From positions 1 to 33,028 of the forward strand of contig NZ_FUYC01000022.1 of the NCBI RefSeq assembly GCF_900167125.1: a stretch of 33,028 nt of DNA. The letters run 5' to 3'. The stretch's first letter is position 1. Every line of letters begins with the position of its first letter. The notes under the pieces were generated by a model that saw nothing but the letters and a program-made list of their open reading frames with translations, ran no database searches and was not told the origin of the DNA. The stretch comes from Paucidesulfovibrio gracilis DSM 16080. GTDB taxonomy: Bacteria > Desulfobacterota > Desulfovibrionia > Desulfovibrionales > Desulfovibrionaceae. Of this stretch, positions 5,230 to 23,955 are shown piece by piece. A program made the translations under genes and the position numbers.

Positions 5230-5237
5230 GCACCATT

Positions 5238-6449: not shown

Positions 6450-6472
6450 CCAACGACGCGAAAGGAAACGCC

Positions 6473-7090
6473 ATGAGCGACCATATTGAACTGTTCAAGG
6501 AAAAGGCCAAACTGGTTTCGGCCCAGGTCACGGAAGTGGCCTCCATGGACGAGGCCTACCGTTTTGTCGTGGAACTCTGCGATAAAAAGGAAGCCTGCCA
6601 GTTGATGATGTCCGGCTGCGGTGAGGCGGTCTCCGACCCGGCCCAGGACATGTGCGACACCAAGCAACGCAAAGTTGTGGCCGCCCCCAACCTGGAACAA
6701 GCCGACTTTGATAAACTGGCCGAACTGTGCGCGGCCCAGGACTTCGACTGCATCCAAAGCGGCATGCGCAAGCATCTGGCCGGAATCGACATCGGATTCA
6801 CTGTCTGCCAGGGCGGTATTGCGGAAACCGGCACGCTGTTGCTGGACTCCAACGATGAGGAAGTCCGGCTGGCCACCATGGTGGCCGAACACCACGTAGC
6901 CGTGTTGCCCAAATCCGCCATCAAGGGCGATTCCTACGATATGGAACAGGCTCTGACCGACCGGCTGGGCAACGGTCCCAGCTACACGGCCATGATCACG
7001 GGTCCGTCCCGTACCGCGGACATTGAGCGCGTTCTCGCCCTCGGCGTCCACGGCCCCCTGGAACTCCACATCCTGCTCCTGGAGGCCTAG
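6473..7090 (+). CDS. lutC: LutC/LldG-type LUD-domain lactate utilisation protein
   Basis: This 205-residue protein has the LUD domain fold, seen in the Gly-rich stretch CQGGIAETGTLLLDS and the C-terminal TGPSRTADIERVLALGVHGP, a signature of the LutC/LldG family. ATG 6473 is preceded by GAAAGGAA. It lies 2 bases before the fused LUD/Fe-S gene, so the two products are expected to act as one complex, the non-flavin L-lactate dehydrogenase known as LutABC or LldEFG in other bacteria. The N-terminal half, with MSGCGEAVSDPA and several Cys residues, is less typical. The assignment to L-lactate rests on family knowledge. Confidence 0.9.
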   Translation: MSDHIELFKEKAKLVSAQVTEVASMDEAYRFVVELCDKKEACQLMMSGCGEAVSDPAQDMCDTKQRKVVAAPNLEQADFDKLAELCAAQDFDCIQSGMRKHLAGIDIGFTVCQGGIAETGTLLLDSNDEEVRLATMVAEHHVAVLPKSAIKGDSYDMEQALTDRLGNGPSYTAMITGPSRTADIERVLALGVHGPLELHILLLEA

Positions 7091-7092
7091 CC

Positions 7093-9246
7093 ATGCAAAA
7101 TGCAAAAGACATCAAAGATTATCGTACCGAGCTTCGGGAATCCCTGGATAATGAATTCCTGCGCAAGACCCTGGACACCTTTGCCGTTGCCTATCGCGCC
7201 GGTCGCGCCAACGCCTTCAAAGATGTGGACGTCAAAGCGCTGATCTCGGACATCGCGGACAGCAAGGATTATGCGGCCCAACATATGGACGAACTATTCC
7301 GCGAGTTCAAGGAAAAAGCCGAAGCCGCGGGCGTTCATGTCCACCTTGCCAAGGATGCCGACGAAGCGAACAAAATTATTGGTCAAATCGCTCAGCAATC
7401 CAATTGCAAAAAGATCGTCAAATCCAAGTCCATGACTGCGGAGGAAACCCTCCTCAACCACCATCTGGAAGACATCGGGCTGGAGGTGACGGAAACGGAC
7501 CTGGGTGAATGGATCATCCAACTGCGCCACGAAGGGCCGACCCACATGGTCATGCCCGCCATCCACCTCTCCCGCTTCCAGGTGGCCGACCTCTTTGGCA
7601 ACGTCACGGGCAAAGAGCAGGACAACGACATTGAAAAATTGGTCAAGGTGGCCCGCCGCGAACTTCGGCGCAAATACGCCGAGGCCGACATGGGTATTTC
7701 CGGGGCCAACTTCTGCGTGGCCGAAACCGGAAGCATCGGCATCGTCACCAACGAAGGCAACGCCCGTCTGGTGACCACCCTGCCGCGTGTTCACGTGGCC
7801 CTGGCCGGTCTGGACAAGCTGACCGCCACGGTCCACGACGCCCTGCGTGTACTCAAGGTGCTGCCCAAAAACGCTACGGGTCAGGCGCTGACTTCCTACG
7901 TTACCTGGATCACCGGCGCGAACCAGTGTCTCGCCGCTGAGGACGACCGCAAGGAAATGCATGTGGTCTTCCTGGACAATGGCCGTTCGGCTCTGGCCAA
8001 GGATCCTGTCTTCAAGGAAGTGCTCCGCTGCGTGCGTTGCGGTGCCTGTGCCAATGTTTGCCCGGTGTACCGTCTGGTGGGCGGCCACAAGATGGGTCAC
8101 ATCTACATCGGTGCCATCGGCCTGATTCTGACTTACTTCTTCCACGGCCGCGACAAGGCCCGCAACCTGGTGCAGAACTGCATCAACTGCGGCGCCTGTG
8201 CGGATATCTGCGCCGGGGGCATTGATCTGCCGCGCCTGATCAAGGAAATCCACGCCCGTATCCAGGACGAGGAAGGCCACCCCATGAAGTCCGTGCTGCT
8301 GGGCAAGGTGCTCTCCAACCGCAAGCTGTTCCATCGCCTGCTGAAAACCGCCCGCTGGGCGCAGGCTCCTGTAAAGGAAAAGAACGGCTTCCTGCGTCAT
8401 CTGCCCATGGTCTTTGCCAAGGAGCAAAACTTCCGCGCCCTGCCCGCCATTGCGGACAAGGCCTTCCGGGACCGCTGGCTTGAAGTCAAACCCCACGTCT
8501 CCGCTCCCAAACACAAGGTGGCCTTGTTCTCCGGCTGCGTGCAGGACTTCGTCTACCCGGATCAGCTCACCGCCACGCTCCAGTCCTTTGAGGGACACGG
8601 CGTTGCCGTGGACTTCCCCATGGAGCAATCCTGTTGCGGTCTGCCCGCCCAGATGATGGGCGAGACCAAAGCCGCGCGCGACGTGGCCCGGCAGAACATC
8701 CGCGCCTTTGAACAGAGCGACGTGGAATATGTGATCTGCTCCTGCGCATCCTGCGCCTCCCATCTGAAGCACGGCTATGTCAAGCTGCTGGCCGGTGATC
8801 ATGTCTGGGAGCCACGGGCCAAGGCTTTTGCCGAAAAGGTCATCGATTACAGCTCGTTCATGAGCGATGTACTCCAAGTGGAACCCAAGGAGTTTCAGGA
8901 TAAGGGCCGCAAGGTCACCTATCATGCTCCCTGCCACCTTTGCCGCGGCCTGGGCGTCAAAGACGCTCCCCGCGACCTGATGCGCTCCGCCGGTCTTGAC
9001 TACGAGCCTTGCAACGAGGAAGAAGTCTGTTGTGGGTTTGGTGGAACCTTCTCCATGAAGTTCCCGGAGTTGTCCGCCGAGCTGCTGAACAAGAAGCTGG
9101 CCGACGCCGAAGCCACCGGTGCCGAGGAGCTGCTTACGGACTGCCCCGGCTGCATTATGCAGTTGCGCGGCGGAGCCGAACGCCGTGGCTCCTCCATCAA
9201 GGTCCGGCACATTGCCGAGGCCGTGGCTGAACAGCGTAAAAAGTAG
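7093..9246 (+). CDS. ldhH: Fused LUD / 4Fe-4S / CCG L-lactate dehydrogenase large subunit (LutB-LutA fusion)
   Basis: This 717-residue protein joins the parts that are separate as LutB and LutA in Bacillus. The N-terminal LUD domain spans about residues 1-290 and includes VAETGSIGIVTNEGNAR. Two 4Fe-4S motifs follow, CVRCGACANVCP from Cys313 and CINCGACADIC from Cys363. Two CCG domains come last, with SCCGLPAQ at about Cys514 and VCCGFGGTF at about Cys646. It starts at ATG 7093 with GGAGG overlapping the upstream stop. The predicted role is oxidation of L-lactate to pyruvate with electrons leaving through the Fe-S clusters. The same fusion occurs in Desulfovibrio-type lactate operons, as I recall. 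The symbol follows that usage and is less certain than the domain call. Confidence 0.92.
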   Translation: MQNAKDIKDYRTELRESLDNEFLRKTLDTFAVAYRAGRANAFKDVDVKALISDIADSKDYAAQHMDELFREFKEKAEAAGVHVHLAKDADEANKIIGQIAQQSNCKKIVKSKSMTAEETLLNHHLEDIGLEVTETDLGEWIIQLRHEGPTHMVMPAIHLSRFQVADLFGNVTGKEQDNDIEKLVKVARRELRRKYAEADMGISGANFCVAETGSIGIVTNEGNARLVTTLPRVHVALAGLDKLTATVHDALRVLKVLPKNATGQALTSYVTWITGANQCLAAEDDRKEMHVVFLDNGRSALAKDPVFKEVLRCVRCGACANVCPVYRLVGGHKMGHIYIGAIGLILTYFFHGRDKARNLVQNCINCGACADICAGGIDLPRLIKEIHARIQDEEGHPMKSVLLGKVLSNRKLFHRLLKTARWAQAPVKEKNGFLRHLPMVFAKEQNFRALPAIADKAFRDRWLEVKPHVSAPKHKVALFSGCVQDFVYPDQLTATLQSFEGHGVAVDFPMEQSCCGLPAQMMGETKAARDVARQNIRAFEQSDVEYVICSCASCASHLKHGYVKLLAGDHVWEPRAKAFAEKVIDYSSFMSDVLQVEPKEFQDKGRKVTYHAPCHLCRGLGVKDAPRDLMRSAGLDYEPCNEEEVCCGFGGTFSMKFPELSAELLNKKLADAEATGAEELLTDCPGCIMQLRGGAERRGSSIKVRHIAEAVAEQRKK

Positions 9247-9268
9247 TTAACGCTTCCCTATCCCACAC

Positions 9269-9292
9269 GTCGGGCCACTCCGGTGGTCCGAC
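9269..9292 (+). other. 10-bp intercistronic hairpin with TCCG loop
   Basis: GTCGGGCCAC at 9269-9278 pairs with GTGGTCCGAC at 9283-9292 (one G-T wobble) around the tetraloop TCCG. The closing pair is C-G, so the RNA form is a cUNCGg-class stable hairpin. No T-run follows, so it is not a normal terminator. It lies between the LUD fusion gene and the FMN dehydrogenase gene and may stabilise mRNA ends or mark a processing point. Confidence 0.6.
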
Positions 9293-9330
9293 GCATCGGG
9301 GCGGGGAAGCCAAGCCAAGGAGAGCACGCC

Positions 9331-10347
9331 ATGAAAGAAATCCGCAAAACCGCCAAGGAACGTTTTCAGGGAACCTGCCGTGTTTGCCCGGTCTGTGACG
9401 GGCGAGCCTGTTCCGGCGAGGTACCTGGCATGGGTGGACTCGGCACCGGCGCCTCGTTCCGGGCCAACATCGAAGCGCTGGCCCGCTATCGGCTGAACAT
9501 GCGCCTGATTCATGATGTGGCCCAGCCGGATACGTCCGTACAAATTTTGGGAGAACATCTCGACATTCCGGTCCTGGCCGCGCCCATCGGCGGCGTATCC
9601 TTCAACATGGCCGACGCCATGCCCGAAGAAGAATACATCATGGCCAAGCTCCAGGGCTGTGACGATGCCGGGATCATGGGCTGTACCGGAGATGGGGTAC
9701 CCGACTTCATCCACCAGGGCGGCTTTGACGCTATTCGGGCCGTGAGTGGCCGGGGCATCCCCTTTATCAAACCTTGGGAAGACGACGAACTGTTCCGCAA
9801 GATCGACCTCGCGGCCGAAACCGGTGCCCGAATCATGGGCATGGACATTGATGCGGCAGGGCTGATCACCTTGCGGCTTATGGGCCGTCCCGTGGCTCCC
9901 AAGACGCCAAAACAGCTGAAGGAAATTATCGGCCACACGGACATGAAGTTCATCCTCAAAGGAGTGATGACTCCGGATGAGGCACGCCTGGCCGTGGACT
10001 GCGGCGCCGATGCCATTGTTGTTTCCAACCACGGCGGTCGCGTCCTGGATCATACGCCGGGCGTGGCCGAAGTCCTCCCAGCGGTCTCCAGCGCCGTGCA
10101 AGGCCGCGCCGTTGTTCTTGCGGACGGCGGCGTCCGCTCCGGTGCGGACATCCTCAAACTTTTGGCGCTTGGTGCGGATGCCGTGATGATCGGCCGCCCA
10201 TTTTCCATCGCCACGGTTGGCGGCGGACGTGAGGGCGTCGTCAAGTATCTGGAAACACTCAAGGCACAGCTCACGCAAGCCATGGTGATGACCGGTACCG
10301 CCAGTGCCGCGGATGTGGAGCGGGCTGTTATTTTCGATACGATGTAG
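9331..10347 (+). CDS. FMN-dependent alpha-hydroxy-acid dehydrogenase with N-terminal four-Cys motif
   Basis: A 338-residue TIM-barrel flavoprotein of the lactate oxidase/LldD/glycolate oxidase family. The FMN and substrate residues are recognisable: LKGV with Lys210, SNHGGRVLD with the catalytic base His234 and Arg237, and the phosphate-binding end ADGGVRSGADILKLLALGAD followed by IGRPF. The N-terminus is unusual for LldD proteins: Cys16, Cys19, Cys22 and Cys27 form C-x2-C-x2-C-x4-C just before GEVPGMGG. An upstream GTG at 9283 is open, but ATG 9331 is preferred because AAGGAG lies 8 bases before it and the GTG falls in a hairpin. It ends the lactate operon, so a 2-hydroxy acid substrate is likely. 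The exact substrate and electron acceptor are unknown. Confidence 0.88.
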   Translation: MKEIRKTAKERFQGTCRVCPVCDGRACSGEVPGMGGLGTGASFRANIEALARYRLNMRLIHDVAQPDTSVQILGEHLDIPVLAAPIGGVSFNMADAMPEEEYIMAKLQGCDDAGIMGCTGDGVPDFIHQGGFDAIRAVSGRGIPFIKPWEDDELFRKIDLAAETGARIMGMDIDAAGLITLRLMGRPVAPKTPKQLKEIIGHTDMKFILKGVMTPDEARLAVDCGADAIVVSNHGGRVLDHTPGVAEVLPAVSSAVQGRAVVLADGGVRSGADILKLLALGADAVMIGRPFSIATVGGGREGVVKYLETLKAQLTQAMVMTGTASAADVERAVIFDTM

Positions 10348-10370
10348 TCAAAAAGTGATTGACGTATCGA
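10334..10370. repeat. Nested inverted repeats at end of lactate operon
   Basis: TCGATACG at 10334-10341 is the exact reverse complement of CGTATCGA at 10363-10370. Inside it, GTCAA at 10347-10351 mirrors TTGAC at 10359-10363. The outer arm overlaps the end of the FMN dehydrogenase gene and the inner arm overlaps the proposed -35 box of the next gene. No T-run follows, so an operator or RNA hairpin is more likely than a terminator. Confidence 0.5.
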
Positions 10371-10386
10371 CTATTGTAGTTATGAA
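10359..10386 (+). promoter_or_regulatory. Sigma-70-like promoter for the Dabb gene
   Basis: TTGACG at 10359-10364 and TATGAA at 10381-10386 are separated by 16 bases in an AT-rich stretch. GAGAGGGAAAG, a good Shine-Dalgarno region, follows before the GTG start at 10411. The -35 box lies within an inverted repeat, which could allow repression. Confidence 0.55.
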
Positions 10387-10410
10387 TAAATATAAGAGAG
10401 GGAAAGTGTC

Positions 10411-10713
10411 GTGATCAAGCACATCGTGATGTGGAAGCTTAAGCCTGAGGCGCTTGGGAACTCCGCGGATGAAAATGCTGCGAAGATGAAGCAGATGCTT
10501 GAAGCATTGCAGGGTGTGATTCCCGTGTTGCGTAGCATTGAAGTCAGCCATGACATCCGAGAATCCGTTCCCGAATGTGATGTACTGCTCTTTTCAGAGT
10601 TCGACAACATGGATGACCTGAGCACCTACGCAACGCATCCGGCCCACCTGGAATGCGTGGACTTCATCAAGCAAGTGGTCAGTGAACGTCGCGTCGTGGA
10701 TTACGCCATCTAG
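10411..10713 (+). CDS. Dabb-domain (stress-responsive A/B barrel) protein
   Basis: A 100-residue protein that covers one Dabb (dimeric alpha-beta barrel) domain: the N-terminal strand MIKHIVMWKLKPEA, a central helix, and the C-terminal YATHPAHLECVDFIK segment with the HPxH pattern typical of the family. It starts at GTG 10411 with GAGAGGG upstream; the initiator would be Met. Dabb proteins are usually cytoplasmic homodimers, but functions vary and no substrate can be assigned. It has its own likely promoter rather than belonging strictly to the lactate operon, though readthrough from upstream is possible because no clear terminator separates them. Confidence 0.85.
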   Translation: MIKHIVMWKLKPEALGNSADENAAKMKQMLEALQGVIPVLRSIEVSHDIRESVPECDVLLFSEFDNMDDLSTYATHPAHLECVDFIKQVVSERRVVDYAI

Positions 10714-10750
10714 CATTCCCCATTCCCCCTTCAACCGTACCCTCTCGAAC

Positions 10751-10770
10751 AGGACCGGTCCGCCGGTCCT
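10751..10770 (+). other. Perfect 8-bp hairpin with TCCG loop
   Basis: AGGACCGG at 10751-10758 and CCGGTCCT at 10763-10770 flank TCCG. No T-run follows. It has the same loop as the hairpin at 9269-9292 and also lies between two same-strand genes, here the Dabb gene and the small Cys-containing gene. Confidence 0.55.
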
Positions 10771-10851
10771 GATCGGGAAGTGCGCGCCGATTTCCGCGTG
10801 CTCCGAATACGGCCGATGCCACAGCGGACACCTTCAACGGAGGATATGACA

Positions 10852-11220
10852 ATGACATGTCACTACAACCCGAACAACAAGCGAATCGTTTGCAAGTGGA
10901 CGGAGCCGGTCAAGTTCGTCATGAACAAAAAGGAAGGCGTTCTTTCCAAGGTCCGCACCATCAACGTGAACGTAAACAAGGATGGCCGACTCAAGAGCCG
11001 CGACGAAAAGCGGCATGCGAACCATCCCATGTTTCCCATTGTCCGACAATTCAGCGATGAACTGCGGCGGATCAACTTCTTTGAAGCCGGGCAGGAACAC
11101 GCTTGCGAACTGTGCGGCAATGTTCACAATGTCACACCCCACTTTGACATCAAGGAACGCCGTCTGCTCTGGCGCTGCGCCGATCCCATCCGCTGTTCGC
11201 AGCTGTCCGACGAATCCTGA
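10852..11220 (+). CDS. Small basic Cys-containing protein of unknown function
   Basis: I do not recognise this 122-residue protein. The preferred start is ATG 10852 because GGAGG ends 8 bases upstream; ATG 10846 is too close to it and GTG 10780 has no clear site. The first half is rich in Lys/Arg/Asn (a VNVNKDGRLK-type strand region). The C-terminal part has HACELCGNVH and, about 20 residues later, WRCADPIRC, which together could form a zinc-ribbon-like site with Cys and His ligands. There is no signal peptide or membrane segment, so it is probably cytoplasmic. Good codon structure and a strong ribosome-binding site support it as a real gene. It could belong to a Desulfovibrio-specific conserved family, but this is a guess. 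Confidence 0.75.
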   Translation: MTCHYNPNNKRIVCKWTEPVKFVMNKKEGVLSKVRTINVNVNKDGRLKSRDEKRHANHPMFPIVRQFSDELRRINFFEAGQEHACELCGNVHNVTPHFDIKERRLLWRCADPIRCSQLSDES

Positions 11221-11640
11221 ACCGCTCGGAACTGTTGCGGCAAAGGACGGCCTGTAGTCGGCACTGCGTTGCAGCATTGGCCGCACTTGCCCGAAAGCCG
11301 GCGTAAGGCTCGACTGCGGTCGAAAATTCGTTCACGCATACCGTGCGATGGTCTTTCCCAACTCCACGTTTCAAGGAAACAACGCTTTTTTGTGCCGCAA
11401 TTTGGACTTGACCGGTGTCCAACTGTCCATTCCGGGGCAACATACGCCCGGATTCCATGGTCTCCCCAGCCAAATGTGGCGATTCTGCTTTGTAACTCGA
11501 TTTGACTTCAACGGACAAAGCCTGCAAATATCCCTCACAGTTTGGAGCATAGGAGCGGCTTGCGCTCCGCCCGGCCAGGGTCTTTCGCCGTGCGCCTTGG
11601 CATCGGCTCCCTTCCACTCTCCGTGAATACTGGAACATAC
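11221..11640. other. 420-base non-coding stretch upstream of cyaA with several short dyads
   Basis: No convincing gene is seen. Short inverted repeats are TCGAC/GTCGA (11310-11323), GTTTC/GAAAC (11368-11380) followed by T6 at 11386-11391, TTGGAC/GTCCAA (11402-11407 and 11417-11422) around ACCGGT, and GGAGCG/CGCTCC (11552-11568). The second is a weak terminator candidate for the upstream genes. The rest may be the regulated leader of the adenylate cyclase gene. Confidence 0.5.
11502..11531 (+). promoter_or_regulatory. Possible promoter for the adenylate cyclase gene
   Basis: TTGACT at 11502-11507 is followed after 18 bases by AAATAT at 11526-11531, which is preceded by TG in the extended -10 position. 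It lies about 110 bases before the preferred start. Spacing and -10 match are only fair. Confidence 0.3.
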
Positions 11641-14600
11641 ATGGCGCCCACGCCCGATTTTCACCAACTGGCCGAAACACTCGGCACCCACCTGTATCCT
11701 CCCAGACCAATGGAAGATACGGACCTTGCCGCGTTGTTATCCCCTTTGGTGAAAGCTCGCCAGCAAATGCTGCAAAGCGGTCAACACGCTGTTTCCCTGG
11801 AGCTTCGGGCCGCTTTGGACGATACAGTGGTGCACTTGCACAATCTGGCCCTCGCCCGCCGGAGCAGCGCCATGCTCAATGCCACCCTCTCCGGTTTGCT
11901 TCGCCTTGGTCCCAGCGGCTGGCACATGACGGGGAGGCTTCTGGTTCGGGGGAACGTAAACCCTTCGGTTTGCACCAGTCTTTTGGATTCTCTGCCCAGC
12001 CATTGTCTGCCCGGATTGCTTCACGCCCTGCTTCCGGTTCGGCATGAATTGGACAAGGCCTTGGTTTCCTGGATGGACTCCCTGGCAAATCAGTGTTCCG
12101 ACATTTCCGACGCGGAGCTTCAGACCTTTGCCCTGGAACTCAATCTCGACGGCGAACGGATTTCCTCGGTGCTGCAAGCAAAACTGTGCACCACCGCATT
12201 CTCATCCGCGTTGCTGCAAAACGCGCTGACGTCTTCCAGCGCTATGCTGCGGTCCTGCCGATGCGTCCATGCCCTGCGGCTGGCCGATACGGCCAAACAG
12301 CTGCTTCTGCGCTGCGTCAAACACCCAAGACTTGCCTCTCCCGAAGCCATCCGGCGGCTGGCCGGGACACTCTCTCCCGACGACGCGACCTCGCTTCAGG
12401 CTCTGGAGCTTCTGGCCCGTTCCTCCGGCATTTTAAAACTCATCCCGACCGCCATCGTCGGGTTGGACCGTCTTGGCTCCCCTTGTGTCGGGGAGCTGGT
12501 GGAGTCCCTTTGCGCCAAATCACCCCAATTGGCCCACGCCCTGCCCAACCTGGTTCCCACGTTGACCGCTCCGGACGCGCATGCCTTTCTCAAGCCGCTG
12601 CCACCGGGCCAGCGCCAACAAGCCTGCGCCACCATGATGCAATGCATCACGGAACTGCAACCCGGCTTCACCGAACGGCTGGCCACGGAACCTGCCCTGT
12701 TCGGCACGGAAAGCCTCACGGCTCACGCCGCCGCGGCAAGCAGGGTCCGAGAACAACGGCTTGATTCCCTGAAACTCCAAACCCCGCAACCGCCCGCTGC
12801 ACGCCCGTGTCAGGCCAACGGCAACGCACTGAAACGACTGTTCCGCAAAAAACAATCCTCGCTTGGGGAACTGCTCGAAAACACCCCGAACCCGCGGGAC
12901 CATCAACGTCCGCAGAGCGTTTTGCACAACAGCGCATTCCAGGGACGGACCATTTCCAATTTGGATATCCACGAATCCCATTTTCACCAGGTCCAGTTCG
13001 TTGGAACCACATTTTTCGGGGTCGATTTTTCCGACTCCACGCTGCTTGAGGCGGATTTCACGGGCTGCACGTTTACGAACTGCTGTTTTCGCAACACCCG
13101 GCTGCATGAAACCCGGCTGCAAGACTGCCAATTAATCCGATGCGATTTTACTGACAGCATGTTCACAAACTGTGAGCTGGAAAGCTGCGCCATTGAGTAT
13201 TCAGTCCTTGGCTCGGTGCTCTGGGATACCTGCGCATTCCGCCTGTTCCGATTCCGCGGGTGCACACTTACACGCTGCCGCTTCCAGCATTGCGAACTGC
13301 TCTCCGTGCTCATGCGCTGTCTCTGGGTAACGGGTACGGTCTGGCACCAGACGACATTTGCCGGAACAACCTGGCTGTACTCCTCGCTCCGGCACACCAT
13401 TTTTCACGAAATCGAAAGCCAAAGCTGCGAAATGCAGCACTGTACCGTCCAGAACTCGCGGGTATTCGGTGCCGCCACAGGGCTGCCGTCCGTGGATATG
13501 GATGAAATCCGGCAACAAAGCATTTTGGCCGAACAGTTCTGTGTCAAGGCCTTGCGCACCAGCGCCGCGCCACCAAACGCAACGTTCGCCTCAGTGGCTC
13601 CGAAACCCACAATCGTATGGTGCCGACTTCGCAGCATCCGCATCCAGGAAACCAAAATGCGGCGAAACAACCAACGCCGCATCCGCCTTGCGCAACAAAC
13701 GGCGCAGGACACTCCTTTCCTCACGATCGTCCCCTTTCTGATTTCCTCCACGGTGTTCGAAGAGGCTCAGGGCTTGCAGGGAGTGCCTGTTTGCCGAATC
13801 GCCGGCTACACACCGGATCCCACCACGCTGGACCTGGTAAAGCAATGGTTCCCCAGCAGCTCGGCAACACCTCCCCAAGGATCGCCTCTGATCATCGCCT
13901 CCCTCTCCACCATAGGCAGTGTGGGGACCGTGGCGCAAACACGTCACTCGGACGCGGACTTCTGGGTCTGCTACGATGCCGACAGCGCCCCTCCCAAAGC
14001 CGTCGAGGGACTGCGCAACAAGCTGGATGCCTTATCCCGTTGGGCCGAAGAGACATTCGGGGTGGAAGCGCATTTCTTTCTCATGCGCCAGGAAGACGTT
14101 AAACAGAACAATTTCGGATTCAGCGACAAGGAAAGCTCCGGCACCGCTCAGGCACTCATGCTCAAGGAGGAGTATTACCGCACCTGCGTGATTCTGGCCG
14201 GAAAGATTCCGGGGTGGTGGCTCACACCTCCGGAATGTTCCGCAACGCATTACGGTGCCTGGCTGAACATGGCCCAAAGTGACCCCTTGGCACAACCCCG
14301 ACGCTTCATGGACAACGGGCATGCCGCACCTGTCCCGGCCAGTGAGTTCCTCGGCGCCGCCCTCTGGCAGATCGTCAAAGGCATCGACAGCCCATTCAAG
14401 TCCATACTCAAACTCGGTCTCTTGGAGCAATACGCCCACGAAGGGCCAACGCGCCCCCTTCTTTGCGACCGCATCAAACGCGACATCCTGCGCGGACATG
14501 AAGCCGCTCCGGCGGATCCTTACACGGCCATGGCCCGTACCGTGTGCAATCATTACCGAGCGCTCGACAATGCCGAAGCCATGCAGCTGGTACCGCGCGC

Positions 14601-15528
14601 CCTGCGCCTCAAAACGGAAATGCAGACATGGCCCCGGCTTTCCAGCATTCCCGTCGAGCATGAGCATGCGCATCTGTTGAAACTTTTTTCCAAGGCGTCC
14701 ACTTTTTCCCAGGTCAGCGCCCCGGCCCCCGTGTCCTTTGCCCAGGCTCTGCGTTTCGGAAACGATATCAGCCGCCACATGATCAGCAGCTACACCCGCA
14801 TCCGCAACACCCCGCAAGCCCGGGCCAAAGCCGCCATCGATCCGGCCGACCTCACCCGGCTCGGACGACGCATTGCCGTAAACTACGCTTCGAAAAAAAA
14901 TAAAATCCAACGCGTTCCCATTCTCGGCATTCCGCAGCGACATTTTGCCGAGTTACACCTCTCCGCACAAAAAAATCCCGGCAAGCCAACCACATGGACC
15001 ATTGCGGGCAAGGCAGGAAAAAAAGGTCGGGCCCACGCGGAACAATACGAAATCCTGGCCCGCTCCCCATTGCCCATCCGCATGTTTGCCTGGATGGTGT
15101 TCAATAAGCTCTATACCCCCGACGCCTTGCTACATGCCGATCAAAACATCGCGCCGCTTTCCACTCCGGATGTACGCAATATCCTGAACAAACTCGACAG
15201 ATCGCTCATCACGTCAACAACATTCAATATCGACCCGGATACCTTCCTCCGACAGGAACGGATCACCCGAGCGCTTCTCGTGGCCAACCTCACGGCGCCT
15301 CCCGAGAGTGACAAACTCCTGGATTTGACGGCCGTGTACACCACAAACTGGGGGGAAGTGTTTTGTACACGACTTGACGAACCACAGAATGCCCTGAAAA
15401 GCGGGTTGCATGCCTATCTGAAGTCCATGCTGCCGCACGCGCAACCCGTCCCGCCGGAAATACAGGTCTATTACCCGAAGCGCTCACTATGTCCGCGCTT
15501 GAAACTCGTTTCATCGTCGGGCAGATAA
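11641..15528 (+). CDS. cyaA: Class I adenylate cyclase with N-terminal helical region and long pentapeptide-repeat domain
   Basis: This 1295-residue protein would make cAMP from ATP. The nucleotidyltransferase signature of E. coli-type CyaA is clear: Gly759-Ser760 in STIGSVGT and the metal-binding pair Asp771 and Asp773 in SDADFWVCYDAD. Downstream family segments are WAEETFGVEAHFFLM, SGTAQALMLKEEYYRT and LAGKIPGWW. Residues 1-430 are mostly helical. Residues 433-612 are 36 pentads in unbroken register, nearly all led by Phe/Leu/other hydrophobics with Cys, Thr or Ser two residues before the centre, predicting about nine coils of a right-handed quadrilateral beta-helix. The C-terminal 300 or so residues are unassigned. 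E. coli CyaA is about 850 residues and lacks the repeats. ATG 11641 is preferred over upstream in-frame starts back to 11542, but no strong ribosome-binding site decides it. Confidence 0.9.
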   Translation: MAPTPDFHQLAETLGTHLYPPRPMEDTDLAALLSPLVKARQQMLQSGQHAVSLELRAALDDTVVHLHNLALARRSSAMLNATLSGLLRLGPSGWHMTGRLLVRGNVNPSVCTSLLDSLPSHCLPGLLHALLPVRHELDKALVSWMDSLANQCSDISDAELQTFALELNLDGERISSVLQAKLCTTAFSSALLQNALTSSSAMLRSCRCVHALRLADTAKQLLLRCVKHPRLASPEAIRRLAGTLSPDDATSLQALELLARSSGILKLIPTAIVGLDRLGSPCVGELVESLCAKSPQLAHALPNLVPTLTAPDAHAFLKPLPPGQRQQACATMMQCITELQPGFTERLATEPALFGTESLTAHAAAASRVREQRLDSLKLQTPQPPAARPCQANGNALKRLFRKKQSSLGELLENTPNPRDHQRPQSVLHNSAFQGRTISNLDIHESHFHQVQFVGTTFFGVDFSDSTLLEADFTGCTFTNCCFRNTRLHETRLQDCQLIRCDFTDSMFTNCELESCAIEYSVLGSVLWDTCAFRLFRFRGCTLTRCRFQHCELLSVLMRCLWVTGTVWHQTTFAGTTWLYSSLRHTIFHEIESQSCEMQHCTVQNSRVFGAATGLPSVDMDEIRQQSILAEQFCVKALRTSAAPPNATFASVAPKPTIVWCRLRSIRIQETKMRRNNQRRIRLAQQTAQDTPFLTIVPFLISSTVFEEAQGLQGVPVCRIAGYTPDPTTLDLVKQWFPSSSATPPQGSPLIIASLSTIGSVGTVAQTRHSDADFWVCYDADSAPPKAVEGLRNKLDALSRWAEETFGVEAHFFLMRQEDVKQNNFGFSDKESSGTAQALMLKEEYYRTCVILAGKIPGWWLTPPECSATHYGAWLNMAQSDPLAQPRRFMDNGHAAPVPASEFLGAALWQIVKGIDSPFKSILKLGLLEQYAHEGPTRPLLCDRIKRDILRGHEAAPADPYTAMARTVCNHYRALDNAEAMQLVPRALRLKTEMQTWPRLSSIPVEHEHAHLLKLFSKASTFSQVSAPAPVSFAQALRFGNDISRHMISSYTRIRNTPQARAKAAIDPADLTRLGRRIAVNYASKKNKIQRVPILGIPQRHFAELHLSAQKNPGKPTTWTIAGKAGKKGRAHAEQYEILARSPLPIRMFAWMVFNKLYTPDALLHADQNIAPLSTPDVRNILNKLDRSLITSTTFNIDPDTFLRQERITRALLVANLTAPPESDKLLDLTAVYTTNWGEVFCTRLDEPQNALKSGLHAYLKSMLPHAQPVPPEIQVYYPKRSLCPRLKLVSSSGR

Positions 15529-15567: not shown

Positions 15568-16488
15568 TCAACCATTCTTGCGTGAGCAAAGCCCACCGAC
15601 CTGGGGACCGTCCCAGGATCGGTGATCCTCCAGCGGCTCCACATGAATCGTCACATGACAGTTGGACAATTCGCCGTAAATACGGTTTTCGATACGATCC
15701 GTAAGGTCGTGACTGCGCTTTACACTGGTGGTCCCGGGCAGAAGCAAATGGAAATCCACGAATCGACGGTTGCCTGCCTTGCGCGTCCGCAGACCATGAA
15801 AAGGAGTTTCCTTCCCCGCCTCATCCTGAATAATGCGGATAATGGCATCCACTTCATGGTCGGGCAACGCCGCATCCATCAGGCCGCCGATGGAGCGGCG
15901 CAACAGCCCCAACCCCGTGACCACGATATTCACGGCCATAATACAGGCAATGATGGGATCCAGAATGTGCCACGAAGAAGGCGCAACGAGCAAAACAGCC
16001 AGCCCCGCCACAAGTCCTGCCGATGTCCAGACATCCGTCAATAAATGCTTGGCGTCCGCTTCCAGGGTAATGGAATCAAAACGATACGCCGCTTTAAGCA
16101 TGGCGTGGGCCGTTGCCCAATTCACACCGCCCGCCACCAAGGCCACCAAAAGCCCCCAACCCAAGCCCGTAAGTTCCTGCGGATGCAGGAAACGATCCAC
16201 CGCCGCGTAGATGATACCGCCGGCAGCGGCCAAAATAAGCAGCCCCTCGGCGGCAGCGGAAAAATATTCGGCCTTACCATGTCCGTAAGCATGCGCCTTG
16301 TCCGCCGGACGCAGAGCAATCGTCAGAGCCGTGAGCGCCAAAACACCAGCGGTCAAATTGACGAGTCCTTCGGTGGCGTCGGAAAGCAACCCCACAGAGC
16401 CGGTCATGTGCCAGGCACCGAACTTCAGAGCCAGGGTCACAAGGGAAGCAAGAATCGAATACACGGCATACCGGCGGGGCGAGGACAT
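15568..16488 (-). CDS. Cation diffusion facilitator (CDF) family metal transporter
   Basis: A 306-residue inner-membrane divalent-metal/proton antiporter with about six transmembrane helices and a cytoplasmic C-terminal domain ending in the HVTIHVEP strand. Family landmarks are GSVGLLSDATEGLVN in helix 2, HAYGHGKAEYFS after helix 2, and HLLTD (His148, Asp152) in helix 5. Helix 5 matches the YiiP metal site, but the helix 2 positions are Glu40 and Asn44 rather than the Asp/Asp of YiiP. Start ATG at 16486-16488 follows AGGAG. It is convergent with cyaA, 39 bases apart, without a clear terminator between. Metal specificity (Zn, Fe, Mn or other) cannot be told. Confidence 0.92.
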   Translation of the reverse strand: MSSPRRYAVYSILASLVTLALKFGAWHMTGSVGLLSDATEGLVNLTAGVLALTALTIALRPADKAHAYGHGKAEYFSAAAEGLLILAAAGGIIYAAVDRFLHPQELTGLGWGLLVALVAGGVNWATAHAMLKAAYRFDSITLEADAKHLLTDVWTSAGLVAGLAVLLVAPSSWHILDPIIACIMAVNIVVTGLGLLRRSIGGLMDAALPDHEVDAIIRIIQDEAGKETPFHGLRTRKAGNRRFVDFHLLLPGTTSVKRSHDLTDRIENRIYGELSNCHVTIHVEPLEDHRSWDGPQVGGLCSRKNG

Positions 16489-16521
16489 GGACTCTCCTGG
16501 GAATAAGATGGGATATCTAAG

Positions 16522-16551
16522 TATAATGGCCGCTCAACCACAAAGAATCAA
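16522..16551 (-). promoter_or_regulatory. Possible promoter of the CDF transporter gene
   Basis: Read on the minus strand, TTGATT (16546-16551) and ATTATA (16522-16527) are separated by 18 bases, about 35 bases before the start codon and upstream of its AGGAG site. The interval is the only AT-rich part of this gap. Confidence 0.35.
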
Positions 16552-16591
16552 GCTTTGAAAAAGATTGTCGCCGTCAACCGACACGAACGAA

Positions 16592-16629
16592 AACAGCCCG
16601 GGCGCGATACGCATCCGGGCTGTTTTTTT
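16592..16629 (-). terminator. Bidirectional rho-independent terminator after plsY
   Basis: AACAGCCCGG at 16592-16601 pairs perfectly with CCGGGCTGTT at 16615-16624. T7 follows on the plus strand and TTTTCG follows the stem on the minus strand. It lies 23 bases beyond the plsY stop, so its main job is probably ending plsY transcription before the CDF gene. Confidence 0.8.
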
Positions 16630-16647
16630 CTCAAGAAAAGATGATAA

Positions 16648-17235
16648 TTACGTAACTTTGCGCCGCCAGGGATTCTCCTGTCCGCGGGCCAGGCGGGCGA
16701 TGTTTTCACGATGACGCCAATACAGAAGCAGCGTCACGACCAGAGCCACCGGGGCCAGCTCCATGCGACCGGAAACAAGCATGGCCACGGGTAACGCCGC
16801 GCCAAAAAGAAGCGACCCCATGGAAACGTAGCCCGAGGCAAAAATACCCACGATGCAAATGACAACGCACACCAGGGTGGGCAGGAAGGCCAGCCCCAGA
16901 AAGGCACCAATGGTGGTGGCCACCGCCTTGCCCCCCCTGAAGCCGAGAAACGGGGAATACACATGGCCGAGAATCGGGGCCAGAGTGCTCAGGCTCAAAA
17001 AAAGCCAATGGTCGCTCATGCCTGTGGCTATGTATACAGGCACCAAGCCCTTGAGCAGATCAAAGGCCAGGGCCGTCAGGCCGAGCGGCAGGCCGCAGGT
17101 GCGGGCCACATTGGTGGCTCCGGTGTTGCCGCTGCCTTGGGTGCGGATGTCCACACCCTTAAGTTTGGCCAGTAGTAATCCAAAAGGAACGCCTCCCAGA
17201 AGATAGGAAGCAATGGGCCAGAATATCCAGTGCAT
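16648..17235 (-). CDS. plsY: Acyl-phosphate:glycerol-3-phosphate acyltransferase PlsY
   Basis: A 195-residue inner-membrane enzyme that moves an acyl chain from acyl phosphate to glycerol-3-phosphate, the first step of phospholipid synthesis. The three conserved PlsY loops are visible: GGVPFGLLLAKLKGVDIR followed by GSGNTGATNVAR, GHVYSPFLGFRGGKAVATT, and a late loop rich in Arg before the final helix. About five hydrophobic helices are present and length is normal. Start ATG at 17233-17235 has AAAGGAG upstream. The RNB exoribonuclease gene lies 42 bases upstream on the same strand, so the two are probably one transcript. Confidence 0.96.
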   Translation of the reverse strand: MHWIFWPIASYLLGGVPFGLLLAKLKGVDIRTQGSGNTGATNVARTCGLPLGLTALAFDLLKGLVPVYIATGMSDHWLFLSLSTLAPILGHVYSPFLGFRGGKAVATTIGAFLGLAFLPTLVCVVICIVGIFASGYVSMGSLLFGAALPVAMLVSGRMELAPVALVVTLLLYWRHRENIARLARGQENPWRRKVT

Positions 17236-17277
17236 GGTGGCTCCTTTGTGTCATCGGCTCAAGGCAGGACAGCCGTC

Positions 17278-19317
17278 CTATTCCTCAAGCGCCTCGGCGA
17301 TTTTGATTGTATTGGTCAGCGGATCGACACGCCCGAATTTAAGCTGAAACCGTTGCCCGGGATACAATTTATCCCCCAGCAAGGCACGCGGGGCGCGAAC
17401 ATTCATTTGCAGTTTGGGCATGGCCAAGCTGGGATACGGTCCGTTTTCCTCCACCAACACAGCCGAATGCCGTTGTTTTCGATTCTGGGCCAGGTACAGC
17501 AGCTTCCAATAGCGCGGCCGGAACCGCTGAATCTGGGAAACCTGCCCGATTCGGGAACTTAACCCGGGAAGCAGCGCTTCTAAGCCCTCCTGACTGAACG
17601 GAGGAGTTGCGTTGTCCAGATATCCGGCCACCTGCGCGGAATTGATCAAATCCGTATAGCGGCGGATGGGCGAGGTGATGGGCGCGTAGGCGTCCACGGC
17701 CAGGGCCGCGTGCCGTTTGGGGTGCGCTTCCAGCAAGGGAGGAGCCATGTACTTGACCGCACGAAAAATATCCTCGGGAGCGGAAAAAATTCCCTGTGCC
17801 TCGGACGGCAGGGCAATATTCTGCGTCCGGTGCAGCAGGGGCACATGGTGGCGGGCTGCCCAATCGGCCAAGGCGCTGTTGGCAAGAATCATGAATTCAC
17901 TCACCGTGAGCGAGGATTTCAACGTGGGCTGCTTCACCTCCACTTCCACCCGGACATCCACCCCGTCGCCCGAAAGCGTCACCTCCGGATCGGGCCGCTT
18001 GATGATCGAAGCCCCGGCTTTGAGTCGCTGTTTGAACAACAGCTTGGCCAATTCCAGCGCTGTTTCAAGCATGGGATCCGCATGGTTGTCCAACGCTTCT
18101 TCCGCCACTTCATACGGCGTATTCGCGGCCACCCGGACCCACTCCAGGCTCGGCGTGACCGAAAGCAAGGCTCCGCCCGGACCGAAGAGAAATTCGGTCA
18201 CCAATGCGGGTCGGGTTTGCCCGGCCATGAGGCTGAAGGCGTCCAGGCCCAAACAATGGGGTAGCATGTGTCCGGTGCCTTCCGGCAGATACAGACTGGT
18301 TGCCCGCTGAGCCACGGCCCGATCCAAAGCCGAACCAAACCGCCATCCCAAGGGACGGGCCAAGGCCAGGCTCAGGCGATAGCCTTCTCCCTGCCGCTCC
18401 ACAAAAAAGGCGTCATCAATGTCCCGCGTGGTGGCTGAATCTATACTTACAAAGGGCGTATCCAAAGGTGTGGCTGCATGCACGGCAACGGTTTCCCGCA
18501 GCTCGCGCACCTCGTCCGCCAAGGCCGCACTCCAGGAATCATCCATGGTGTATCCGGCCTCATCCAGCAGATGATTATGGTGCGGTTCCACAATCCCCCA
18601 GGCACGGGCCAGCACCAAAGCCTGATGCGGATGTTCGGGCAAGCCCTTGCGCAGTCCGGCCCACAATTTATCGGCCTTTTCGTCTGCGGTGCCGGAAATC
18701 TGATCCAACAGCAGCGCCCGCAATCCTTCGGCCACTTCCTCGGGCAACTCTAATCCGGAAGGCTCGCGCTGCGCCGTCCAGAGCGACTTGAACAGCTCCT
18801 GGCCCACTGCGGTAATCCGGTCGCGAACACGTTCCTCGGCTTCTTGCCGAAGCCGCTGGTCCACCTTGTCCGCCGGATGGATTTCAAACATGGGTGGACG
18901 AAATTTGAAATGCGTTTTTGCCGCCAGCAGAGCACGGCCCAACGCCGCCATTTCGTCCGGGCTGGGATCGTCAAACACCAGATCCGCGAACCATTTCAGC
19001 GGGGCTTCTTCCAGTTCTCCCTGGGCAAGCTCCCAGACTTCCATGACGTCCAGACCCGCCTGAATGCTTCCACGACGCTGGTGGTGCTTCTCAAGCTGCT
19101 CCAGAATTTCCTGTCGACTGGCATCCGGATTGTTCTGCGGCCCAATCCAGGGGAGCAGGCGGGCGCATGCCAGCTTGACTTCCCGCTTGTTCACGGTGAG
19201 CGCGCGTAGTTTCCCCGAGTTTTCTTCCTGCACCCAAGCCAGTTGCGGCTGATTGCCCTGCATGAATTCCACAACGCAGCCGGGGCCGGGAAAGGTTTCG
19301 GGACGAAGTTTGACCAT
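17278..19317 (-). CDS. RNB-family (RNase II/R-like) 3'-5' exoribonuclease
   Basis: A 679-residue protein with a central RNB catalytic domain. The metal-binding tetrad is intact: Asp293, Asp299, Asp301 and Asp302 in SIDSATTRDIDDAFF, with the same spacing as RNase II Asp201/207/209/210. It should degrade single-stranded RNA processively from the 3' end. The first 280 residues lack clear cold-shock domains and are rich in helix. The C-terminus has an S1-like beta segment (VLVEENGPYPSLAMPKL region). It starts at ATG 19315-19317, only 25 bases after the terminator of the upstream gene, and no strong Shine-Dalgarno sequence is visible. Whether it acts as RNase R, RNase II or a divergent third type cannot be told. 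Confidence 0.9.
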   Translation of the reverse strand: MVKLRPETFPGPGCVVEFMQGNQPQLAWVQEENSGKLRALTVNKREVKLACARLLPWIGPQNNPDASRQEILEQLEKHHQRRGSIQAGLDVMEVWELAQGELEEAPLKWFADLVFDDPSPDEMAALGRALLAAKTHFKFRPPMFEIHPADKVDQRLRQEAEERVRDRITAVGQELFKSLWTAQREPSGLELPEEVAEGLRALLLDQISGTADEKADKLWAGLRKGLPEHPHQALVLARAWGIVEPHHNHLLDEAGYTMDDSWSAALADEVRELRETVAVHAATPLDTPFVSIDSATTRDIDDAFFVERQGEGYRLSLALARPLGWRFGSALDRAVAQRATSLYLPEGTGHMLPHCLGLDAFSLMAGQTRPALVTEFLFGPGGALLSVTPSLEWVRVAANTPYEVAEEALDNHADPMLETALELAKLLFKQRLKAGASIIKRPDPEVTLSGDGVDVRVEVEVKQPTLKSSLTVSEFMILANSALADWAARHHVPLLHRTQNIALPSEAQGIFSAPEDIFRAVKYMAPPLLEAHPKRHAALAVDAYAPITSPIRRYTDLINSAQVAGYLDNATPPFSQEGLEALLPGLSSRIGQVSQIQRFRPRYWKLLYLAQNRKQRHSAVLVEENGPYPSLAMPKLQMNVRAPRALLGDKLYPGQRFQLKFGRVDPLTNTIKIAEALEE

Positions 19318-19342
19318 GGTCGAATCCGAATGTTGCGGTTGG

Positions 19343-19370
19343 AAAAACCGGGGAGCAAGAAACTCCCCGG
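19343..19370 (-). terminator. Rho-independent terminator after the AICAR formyltransferase gene
   Basis: On the minus strand CCGGGGAG and CTCCCCGG (plus-strand 19363-19370 and 19348-19355) form an 8-bp GC-rich stem with a 7-base loop, followed by TTTTT (19343-19347). It begins 7 bases after the stop codon and ends 25 bases before the next start on the same strand. Confidence 0.85.
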
Positions 19371-19377
19371 CGTATTG

Positions 19378-20652
19378 TTAATGCTTGAAGGAGCGCTGGC
19401 CCGTGAAGACCATGGCCACTTGGGGGGTAGCTTCGTTCACGGCCTGAATGATCTCATGATCGCGGATGGAGCCGCCGGGCTGGGCAATGGCGGAGACGCC
19501 CTGCTCGATGCACAGATCCACGCCGTCGCGGAAGGGGAAGAACCCATCGGAAACCGCTACGGATCCCTGAATTCCACCTTTGGCCTCGGCAGTACGCCGC
19601 TGGATGTCGGCCAACGCATCCGCCATGGCGTCATCCTCGCGAGCGGCGAGCTGCACCTCGAAAAGGCTCTTGCCCAGTTCGTCAAAAGCCAGCAGGTCCG
19701 CATACTTGGTGTACGCCTTGCTTACGGCAAGCTGGACGCACCCCACACGATCCTGTTCACCGGTGCCGATGGCAACGGTGGCGCCGTCCTTGACGAAAAG
19801 AACAGAGTTGGATGTCACTCCCGATTCCACGGCCCAGGCAAAAAGCAAATCTTCGGCCTCGGCTTTTTCCGGTCCACGGGCAATGAAACTCGCGCCGTCC
19901 TTTTCCGCCTTGGCCGGGAGGAAGTCCTCCACCGTGCGGATGCGGTTGCGGAAGGAAAATTGAACGATGACGCCGCCATCCACCAGGCTCTTCACATCCA
20001 GGAACGGCTCGGCTCCCAGCATGGATAAATCGTTGATGCCCGGCAATTTGATGATGCGCAGGTTCTTCCGTTTCTTCAACTCGTCCAGCGCGTCCGGCGC
20101 AAAGTCCGGCGCGGCAACCACTTCGAAATAAGCGGAATTGATGACCTGGGCGCAGTCCATATCCACAGGGCGGTTCAGCACAATGGCACCGCCAAAGGCG
20201 GCGATGCGGTCCGCGTCAAAGGCCCGGCGCAATGCCGTGGCAATACCGTCGTCGCTCCAGGCCGCGCCGCAGGGGTTGTTGTGCTTGAGAATCACGGCCG
20301 CAGGCTTGGCCTCCAGGTATTGGAGGATATTCAACCCGTTATCCACGTCCGTAAGATTGATCTTGCCGGGATGCTTTCCCGCCTGGAGCATATGCTCCTC
20401 GCTGATAGCGGAGACCAGCCCCTTCCCCGGTCCGCGCAGGGCAACACCGTCCGCGTCCAGTTCGCCGGACACCGGTTCGTACAGGGCCGCAGGCTGATCT
20501 GGATTTTCTCCGTACCGCAGTCCCTTGGTCTCTCCGTCGATCTCCCAGGTCCGCTTGCGGAAGACCAACTCCTTGTCACCCAGGCGCAAGGTCATTTCCC
20601 GGGGAAAAGGATCCTGTTGCAGGGTTTTATACATGTCCTTGAGATTACTCAT
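19378..20652 (-). CDS. Stand-alone AICAR formyltransferase (PurH C-terminal-type domain only)
   Basis: A 424-residue enzyme matching the AICAR transformylase half of PurH, which formylates AICAR with 10-formyl-tetrahydrofolate late in purine synthesis. Motifs are LRYGENPDQPAALY near the N-terminus, the catalytic ILKHNNPCGAAW, AFDADRIAAFGGAIVLN, SNSVLFVKDG and the end region VAVSDGFFPFRDGVD with AQPGGSIRD. The MGS-like IMP cyclohydrolase domain that normally precedes it in PurH (about 200 residues) is absent, and the upstream DNA is intergenic, so the cyclohydrolase must be elsewhere. The start at 20650-20652 is chosen because GAGGAG lies 8 bases upstream; the longer in-frame ATG at 20700 would overlap the likely promoter. 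Confidence 0.9.
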   Translation of the reverse strand: MSNLKDMYKTLQQDPFPREMTLRLGDKELVFRKRTWEIDGETKGLRYGENPDQPAALYEPVSGELDADGVALRGPGKGLVSAISEEHMLQAGKHPGKINLTDVDNGLNILQYLEAKPAAVILKHNNPCGAAWSDDGIATALRRAFDADRIAAFGGAIVLNRPVDMDCAQVINSAYFEVVAAPDFAPDALDELKKRKNLRIIKLPGINDLSMLGAEPFLDVKSLVDGGVIVQFSFRNRIRTVEDFLPAKAEKDGASFIARGPEKAEAEDLLFAWAVESGVTSNSVLFVKDGATVAIGTGEQDRVGCVQLAVSKAYTKYADLLAFDELGKSLFEVQLAAREDDAMADALADIQRRTAEAKGGIQGSVAVSDGFFPFRDGVDLCIEQGVSAIAQPGGSIRDHEIIQAVNEATPQVAMVFTGQRSFKH

Positions 20653-20688
20653 GGCTTTTTGCTCCTCGCTCTCTTTCGTGAAGAGGGG

Positions 20689-20717
20689 TTCATAGCACAT
20701 GCCCGGCAGGGGGGCAA
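20689..20717 (-). promoter_or_regulatory. Sigma-70-like promoter for the AICAR formyltransferase gene
   Basis: On the minus strand TTGCCC (20712-20717) and TATGAA (20689-20694) are spaced 17 bases. Transcription would start near 20682, leaving a leader of about 30 bases with GAGGAG before the ATG at 20652. Confidence 0.5.
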
Positions 20718-20724
20718 TCGGCCG

Positions 20725-20753
20725 TTGCCTGGACCGGCTGAATGGAATATGGG
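20725..20753 (+). promoter_or_regulatory. Weak promoter candidate for the 133-residue gene
   Basis: TTGCCT at 20725-20730 and TATGGG at 20748-20753 with 17-base spacing, about 35 bases before the ATG at 20789. It is divergent from, and adjacent to, the AICAR formyltransferase promoter. The -10 box is a poor match. Confidence 0.3.
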
Positions 20754-20788
20754 ATACTGCCGTACATCAGGAACACGAGGTGATAAAC

Positions 20789-21190
20789 ATGTCCTTGGAA
20801 AATGCTGTATTAAAGATAGCCCGCCAGATCAGAGCGTATGATGAGGCCTCACTCATGAGCCTGTGGGAACAACTCGCGGAACGCGTAGCCCATTTCGAGC
20901 CGACAGCACGCTGGGAGGACGCGGTGGTGGCGCTTTCCATTGTGCAGGGTGTGCGCATGAAGAATCAACTTTTCAACCATCATATGTCCCATACGGCGAA
21001 GGCACCGGCCGGCCCGGGCATGCGGATTGCGGACCTGACCATTCCCGAGGGGATGGAACGCACCGGTTTTGAGGAATTATCCGGTGAGGCCGGGCAGCTC
21101 AATCTCGATGCCGGGGAATCGGAGTCCGACGGATCCGACGTCGGGTCGAAGCGGGGCAAGCTGCTGGAGTTCAAACCCAGGCAAAAATGA
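20789..21190 (+). CDS. Conserved-looking protein of unknown function, 133 residues
   Basis: I do not recognise this protein. Start ATG 20789 has GAGGTGA 7 bases upstream, far better than the longer ORF starting at 20699. Residues 1-65 are predicted helical and amphipathic (KIARQIRAYDEASLMSLWEQ region). Residues 70-95 hold QLFNHHMSHTAKAP with three His. The C-terminal 40 residues are acidic and Ser/Gly-rich, ending in a basic [10 protein letters not shown] tail, and look disordered. There is no signal or membrane segment. The last 114 bases overlap the end of the opposite-strand mltF-like gene. It is probably a cytoplasmic protein. Purine genes on both sides do not by themselves assign a role. 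Confidence 0.72.
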   Translation: MSLENAVLKIARQIRAYDEASLMSLWEQLAERVAHFEPTARWEDAVVALSIVQGVRMKNQLFNHHMSHTAKAPAGPGMRIADLTIPEGMERTGFEELSGEAGQLNLDAGESESDGSDVGSKRGKLLEFKPRQK

Positions 21191-22585: not shown

Positions 22586-22670
22586 GCGTGGATTCCTTAT
22601 TTTAGGCAATAAGGCCGTTTGTCCGCAATTCCGGCGGAGCGGCGTTTACGTTTTTCTCAAGGAGACAGCA

Positions 22671-23951: not shown

Positions 23952-23955
23952 TCCC

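Follow-up and report, generated by a model that had tools for sequence, protein, structure and literature searches.

The cyclase gene and its surroundings

The window, by which we mean the whole 33,028-nucleotide stretch of Paucidesulfovibrio gracilis DSM 16080 DNA that was analysed, carries on its forward strand a reading frame that is open over 11542-15528, within which the ATG at 11641 yields a protein of 1295 amino acids and an in-frame TTG stands at 11542. Counted from the ATG, the product can be divided into an N-terminal domain, a pentapeptide repeat, a linker, a catalytic core and a C-terminal tail (Table 1).

Table 1. Coordinates of the features of the cyclase gene in the window.
Feature	Coordinates	Strand	Basis
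Three-part class I adenylyl cyclase gene	11641-15528	+	ATG start, 1295 aa
N-terminal domain, residues 1-425, predicted helical	11641-12915	+	All-helical model; HEAT-like repeats in some relatives
36 pentapeptide repeats, residues 433-612, predicted nine-coil beta-helix	12937-13476	+	Pfam, register count, model, fold matches
Modelled beta-helix strands, residues 427-609	12919-13467	+	AlphaFold2
Near-invariant Cys476, Cys496 and Cys501 at i-2, residues 476-501	13066-13143	+	Alignment of 32
Variable linker, partly helical, residues 613-670	13477-13650	+	Models, identity by part
Class I cyclase catalytic core, residues 671-1224	13651-15312	+	PF12633 149.7 bits, PF01295 132.5 bits
Active-site stretch Gly759-Ser760 ... 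Asp771, Asp773, Trp775	13915-13965	+	Alignment with E. coli CyaA
C-terminal tail, residues 1225-1295	15313-15525	+	Alignment with E. coli CyaA

Both Pfam families of the core, PF12633 (Adenyl_cycl_N) and PF01295 (Adenylate_cycl), were matched well above their cut-offs of 27 each. E. coli CyaA aligned with the core at 26% identity over 604 columns (E. coli residues 61-640 of 848), and the alignment ended where E. coli residue 640 meets residue 1277 of the window protein. Gly759-Ser760, Asp771, Asp773 and Trp775 fell on the E. coli stretch containing the corresponding GS pair together with D114, D116 and W118, the latter three of which we take to be catalytic residues of CyaA. The first-pass annotation, made from the sequence alone, had proposed a class I catalytic domain with Gly759-Ser760 and Asp771/Asp773 intact, which this alignment confirmed; a loss of catalytic residues in the window gene was ruled out, and the active-site residues were retained in 31 of 32 aligned members. 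Judged by its families and active-site residues, the window protein is a class I adenylyl cyclase.

The two enzymes differ at both ends. CyaA starts with the core, whereas 670 residues precede it in the window protein, and CyaA aligned only to the C-terminal part of the latter, from E. coli residue 61 onwards, in agreement with the earlier statement that it has no pentapeptide repeat. Nothing in the window protein aligned with the last ~200 residues of CyaA, which belong to its regulatory region, and the protein falls outside the E. coli-type CyaA subtype: it has no region past E. coli residue ~640 and scores 353.6 bits with NCBIfam NF006981, below that model's cut-off of 802. NF006981 is nevertheless the best family model for the protein, matched over positions 24-631 of 638, but it is too short to include the N-terminal module. 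No solved class I cyclase structure was retrieved by sequence search, which gave one chance match (E 0.045), or by profile search among the 60 of 67 matches listed.

Upstream of the cyclase, at 400-10347, lies a lactate/acetate set comprising a GlcD-like gene, an Fe-S protein gene, pta, ackA, genes for LUD proteins and an FMN dehydrogenase gene. Its last five genes also stand upstream of the cyclase in a genome of the same genus (G001, locus L041), and none of them was found in the upstream stretches examined of loci L043, L113 and L035. About 1.2 kb (10348-11540) separates the FMN dehydrogenase gene from the cyclase; two open reading frames tested there had no Pfam match, and the interval had no Rfam match. 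Over the entire window, no RNA families at gathering scores (Rfam) and no tRNAs were detected. The segment at 15571-24822, between and including a cation-efflux gene and a holB-like gene, runs the other way round in two genomes of the same genus and in three further relatives; in those five the holB-like gene comes after the cyclase, and one breakpoint lies just past the cyclase stop. Other neighbours were seen elsewhere: a histidine-phosphatase domain is fused ahead of a 1578-aa cyclase at L048:3719-8452 and occurs as a separate gene just upstream of a related cyclase at L049:11846-12658, while in another clade a phosphoglucomutase/phosphomannomutase-type gene, so called by Pfam on L033 only, is located 25-73 bases upstream of the cyclase (L033:5299-6960, L035:5254-6912, L113:2984-4750). 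The genome to which the window belongs has seven cNMP-binding matches, possible receivers of cAMP.

The pentapeptide repeat and its predicted fold

Residues 433-612, which correspond exactly to 12937-13476, can be read as 36 pentads in a single register without a slip, as the first-pass annotation had stated. Its two further counts were reproduced as well: a hydrophobic residue (LIVMFWY) leads 35 of the 36 pentads, the exception being Ser593, and Cys occupies i-2 in 12 of them, where about a dozen had been reported. The best 36-pentad register reached by chance was 24/36 in 2000 shuffles of the whole protein and 23/36 in 5000 shuffles of the region, and a chance repeat was thus ruled out. Pfam identified Pentapeptide_4 (65.9 bits, cut-off 38) and Pentapeptide (42.7 bits, cut-off 20.2) in this region. 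Pentapeptide repeat proteins are delimited, in a review (PMC8145042), by at least eight contiguous pentapeptides; the window protein has 36, in addition to the Pfam scores above cut-off.

AlphaFold2 was run on residues 415-673 with the window sequence and six relatives. The resulting model (pTM 0.71; pLDDT at least 90 at 156 of 259 residues) shows short strands spaced about five residues apart over 427-609, and its block-mean pLDDT is 85-98 over 425-604 and 66 over 605-614. In VIA, ranks 1-25 were all solved pentapeptide proteins, some of them designed (Z 20.8-24.2), and other beta-helix proteins started at Z 14.5. HetL (Z 24.1, 197 residues, rmsd 2.7) and AlbG (Z 24.1, 190 residues, rmsd 4.0) were followed by EfsQnr (23.2), QnrB1 (22.9) and MfpA (21.9), with NleL at 13.9. 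Foldseek on the beta-helix gave a probability of mostly 1.00, with low TM-scores (at best 0.70 by target length among the 50 matches listed). The repeat is therefore predicted to form a right-handed square beta-helix with four pentads per coil, its handedness being taken from the VIA matches. The nine-coil beta-helix proposed from the letters agrees with the modelled strands and with the Z range of the solved pentapeptide proteins. A beta-helix usually rises by 4.8 A per coil, and nine coils would span about 43 A.

A larger model of residues 96-1295 (1200 residues) is modest, with a pLDDT of 62 and a pTM of 0.47, too weak for placing the domains relative to each other. It reproduces the same pentad periodicity with some breaks. 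Over 108-412 it consists only of helices. HEAT_2 was found by Pfam in 4 of 32 aligned members, and a family profile search matched designed alphaRep protein structures. Residues 1-425 are accordingly predicted to be a helical, HEAT-like N-terminus, a further domain that the first-pass annotation did not include.

Occurrence and divergence of the three-part cyclase

The cyclase and pentapeptide families were found by Pfam in all 32 members of alignment A1, window included. This alignment, which leaves out L034 (the same locus as L051, with an identical blastp row; L034 was kept in A2 and A5), was gathered by similarity to the whole protein or to the cyclase half. Since such recruitment is biased toward full-length similarity, cyclases were also searched for by the cyclase family alone. 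In a sample of 247 Desulfovibrionaceae genomes, 125 PF12633 matches were obtained in 109 genomes, and 121 of the 125 class I cyclases so matched were covered without a break by a profile of the beta-helix plus the start of the cyclase. The four exceptions are G505, matched in two pieces yet a single open frame with all three parts, G455, split over two frames, G470, with the repeat piece on a separate contig, and G582, where the contig starts within the gene. Hence, what had been described as a feature of one gene is carried by nearly every class I cyclase match of the family, and a single-genome oddity or an assembly artefact was ruled out.

A phylum-wide sample of 395 genomes gave 51 cyclase matches above cut-off in 49 genomes, and the repeat was present in 10 of them, namely in 6/6 within the window's family and in 4/45 outside it (three in family f11 and one in f55). 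The 41 matches without the repeat comprise 27 that had no match to the repeat model and 14 so classed by open-frame length (631-732 residues) only. The usual class I cyclase in this sample is a bare core or a core extended by something else at one end or the other. In the one phylum surveyed, the fusion is the prevailing form within the family and rare outside it. Named loci in the window's clade belong to Humidesulfovibrio and Desulfovibrio.

A quick tree of 68 cores requires two architecture changes, and the repeat-bearing L100 lies outside the group in it. The tree in which all 40 repeat-bearing cyclases were united scored 17.6 log units above the free quick tree (p-AU 0.80), so that a single origin of the repeat-bearing cyclases is not rejected on these sequences. 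The three f11 sequences are nested among family rows (fork support 88), which may reflect transfer. Placements near the long branches of L065, L118 and E. coli are unsure.

The span of residues 433-612 is exactly 180 residues in 23 of the 32 rows, shorter in seven (169-175, with gaps mainly in the first few pentads) and longer in two (199-200, about one extra coil of 20), although the identity of the repeat to that of the window falls as low as 20% (L043). Because Desulfovibrio-like relatives keep this tower, mostly at the same length, the repeat is a real part of the enzyme, and probably a regulatory one. Over the 32 rows, mean entropy was 1.93 bits at the inward position i and 2.23 bits at i-2, compared with 2.73-3.14 bits at the outward positions, and no outward face of the beta-helix stands out by position entropies in these rows. 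With the outward positions least conserved, no conserved docking surface is seen, and a passive spacer would fit equally well.

These observations bear on three other readings of the repeat. According to the first, the beta-helix is a direct docking platform that recognises a protein and thereby localises or regulates the cyclase, like HetL and SopA. HetL binding HetR (PMC7476756) and the cleft-bound partner of SopA (PMC8145042), as described in parts of these sources, are precedents, and the HetL and NleL fold matches agree with it; we nonetheless consider it unlikely, as an outward face with raised conservation is absent from the 32 rows. According to the second, the repeat is a DNA mimic or gyrase-type binder like MfpA and Qnr. 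Such proteins share the fold, and DNA mimicry had been raised in the first-pass annotation, but the net charge of the repeat is -5 in the window and -12 to +8 over the 32 aligned members, its sign not being kept (these are charge counts, not surface potentials), and the Qnr/MfpA family models give no more than 32 bits, where their cut-offs are 240-500. Mimicry is thus disfavoured, and we regard it as extremely improbable. A fixed length combined with a free surface is as expected of a rigid tower or spacer and argues against both a conserved docking face and a DNA mimic. According to the third, the beta-helix is a passive spacer, or a solubility/stability domain, that merely separates two domains. 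This somewhat unlikely reading is favoured by the conservation of repeat length rather than surface and by the fast divergence of the cyclase relative to neighbouring genes described below, whereas a spacer needs no 425-residue helical domain ahead of it.

Inside the repeat, Phe473, Cys476, Cys496 and Cys501 each occur in 29 of the 32 aligned members, and the three cysteines recur as Cys in 19, 19 and 16, respectively, of 21 further cyclases. Cys476 and Cys496 are 20 residues, or one coil, apart and would be stacked in the predicted fold. One might suppose that stacked inward cysteines (476, 496 and 501, and also 516) sense oxygen or bind a metal and so gate the cyclase, given that these positions rank among the most conserved of the repeat and that each repeat region holds 7-20 Cys over the 32 rows. 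However, the pentapeptide fold ordinarily packs small residues, Cys among them, at i-2, and Ser, Val or Ala replaces these cysteines in some of the further cyclases whose active site is intact, which makes such a redox or metal sensor very improbable in our view.

The cyclase diverges rapidly. In G001, where the gene is syntenic behind pta, ackA, the LUD protein genes and the FMN dehydrogenase gene, it is 43% identical to that of the window, compared with 57-88% for the syntenic neighbours and 80-88% for the five upstream lactate/acetate proteins. By part, identity is 28% in the N-terminus, 41% in the repeat and 53% in the core. In G002, where the gene is truncated by the end of the contig, 51% identity for the cyclase compares with 64-89% for five neighbours on its other side. 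Such fast divergence may reflect either co-evolution with a partner that itself changes or surfaces that are only weakly constrained.

HD-GYP partners and a proposed role for the N-terminal module

Among 39 loci, 12 carry an HD-GYP gene in the same orientation as the cyclase and 10-289 bases upstream of it. Pfam found HD_5 and DUF3391 in each of the three HD-GYP proteins that were run, and the other nine are homologues. These 12 loci make up one clade of the cyclase tree (SH-aLRT 99), and the window falls outside it. Of the 31 best matches to a profile of the HD-GYP proteins in the 247 genomes, 28 stand upstream of a cyclase of this kind in the same orientation. The profile had been trained on 12 of these 31; among the other 19, 16 are linked and three lie on contigs other than that of the cyclase. 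The linkage count drew on 71 of the 125 cyclase matches and, among the HD-GYP matches listed, on 60 (one of them duplicated); it included every cyclase of the genomes with the 31 best HD-GYP matches, and not always those of genomes with lower ones. No HD-GYP gene was found near the cyclase in the window or in its nearest relatives, and the best HD-GYP match of the window's genome is on a different contig from the cyclase. HD-GYP proteins with DUF3391, which are c-di-GMP phosphodiesterases, are thus operon partners in a sister clade and not adjacent to the cyclase in the window's genome. The HD-GYP phosphodiesterase encoded in the same operon is plausibly the partner of the cyclase in that sister clade, evidence which says nothing direct on the cyclase of the window.

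In three species of genus g21 (G505, G538 and G562), the HD-GYP-linked cyclase has Ser760, Asp771 and Glu843 replaced while its three parts are kept (L127:661-4947, L128:1070-5125 and L129:2387-6409). Taken from its first possible start codon, the cyclase begins 9 bases past the final sense codon of the HD-GYP gene, a distance that includes the stop codon. The HD-GYP partner retains its HD and HHE motifs, with Asp272 changed to Asn in one of the three. Each of these genomes also encodes another three-part cyclase, in which Ser760, Asp771 and Glu843 are intact. The linked cyclase of G505 scores 91 bits with PF12633 and 23.5 with PF01295, below the cut-off. Judged by these replacements, the g21 linked cyclases are probably dead enzymes. 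Elsewhere, one of the four repeat-bearing cyclases of G025 (L065:7623-11594, on a long branch) has lost Ser760, Asp771, Asp773 and Trp775, and one G499 copy has Asp771 changed to Asn. Since the N-terminal module persists on cyclases that have probably lost their activity, it would have work of its own, at least in the HD-GYP clade. Retention in 121 of 125 matches, and on cyclases without the active-site residues, also suggests selection beyond spacing and counts against the passive spacer.

We propose, at about even confidence for this explanation as a whole, that the enzyme is a cytoplasmic class I adenylyl cyclase of three parts whose N-terminal module is regulatory. The parts are the predicted helical N-terminus (residues 1-425), the predicted beta-helix (about 427-612) and a core of the nucleotidyltransferase type that extends from residue 671 to the end. 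That the helical domain and the beta-helix together regulate or position cAMP synthesis, with the tower setting the geometry, is a claim we hold with the same middling confidence, and a positioning or regulating role fits the conserved architecture. In such an enzyme, the N-terminal module would replace the missing E. coli-type C-terminal region as regulatory input; the beta-helix would act as a rigid nine-coil tower fixing how far from the cyclase, and at which angle, the helical domain sits; and a partner protein touching the helical domain or the tower would turn cAMP synthesis up or down, or determine its place. Quite tentatively, and with considerable doubt, we speculate further that the module couples class I cAMP synthesis to c-di-GMP turnover by docking, in the one clade, the HD-GYP protein of the operon, that the linked cyclase of the three g21 species is a dead enzyme now regulating this phosphodiesterase, and that the lineage of the window uses another or an unlinked partner.

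No paper on this fusion was found among titles and abstract starts, which covered few subscription papers, nor any on the fusion as the family-wide class I form, its mostly fixed length, the HD-GYP operon, or copies with lost active-site residues. The word 'cyclase' is absent from the main text of the pentapeptide review PMC8145042. Domain databases may well already show the combination. Both domain families are already known; new, as far as the literature was searched, is their family-wide fusion in a class I cyclase. In 2005, class I adenylyl cyclases were described, in part of one account (PMC1183210), as cytoplasmic and not known as environmental sensors. The present analysis adds a bacterial family whose class I cyclases lack the E. 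coli C-terminal region and carry, at the N-terminus, a large and conserved module made up of two repeat domains. Class I cyclase regulation and a link from cAMP to c-di-GMP thereby become directly testable; the enzyme to which the pentapeptide beta-helix is joined has a known chemistry, so cAMP can serve as the readout for what the beta-helix does.

Among known systems, SopA and NleL likewise carry a pentapeptide beta-helix N-terminal to an enzyme, and in the passages of PMC8145042 on SopA the partner binds in a cleft between the beta-helix and the catalytic lobe. Their beta-helix has 4 to 5.5 coils and precedes an unrelated ubiquitin-ligase domain in injected effectors, whereas that of the window protein is predicted to have nine coils and precedes a cyclase. 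HetL (40 pentapeptides), which acts through protein contact in the part of PMC7476756 that deals with HetR binding, is similar in size and fold but is a single domain without an enzyme. MfpA, QnrB1, EfsQnr and AlbG share the beta-helix fold (Z 21.9 to 24.1) but are gyrase-related resistance proteins; the electrostatic surface of MfpA is described as DNA-like in PMC8145042, again in part of that review, and the repeat of the window protein, unlike that surface, is near-neutral.
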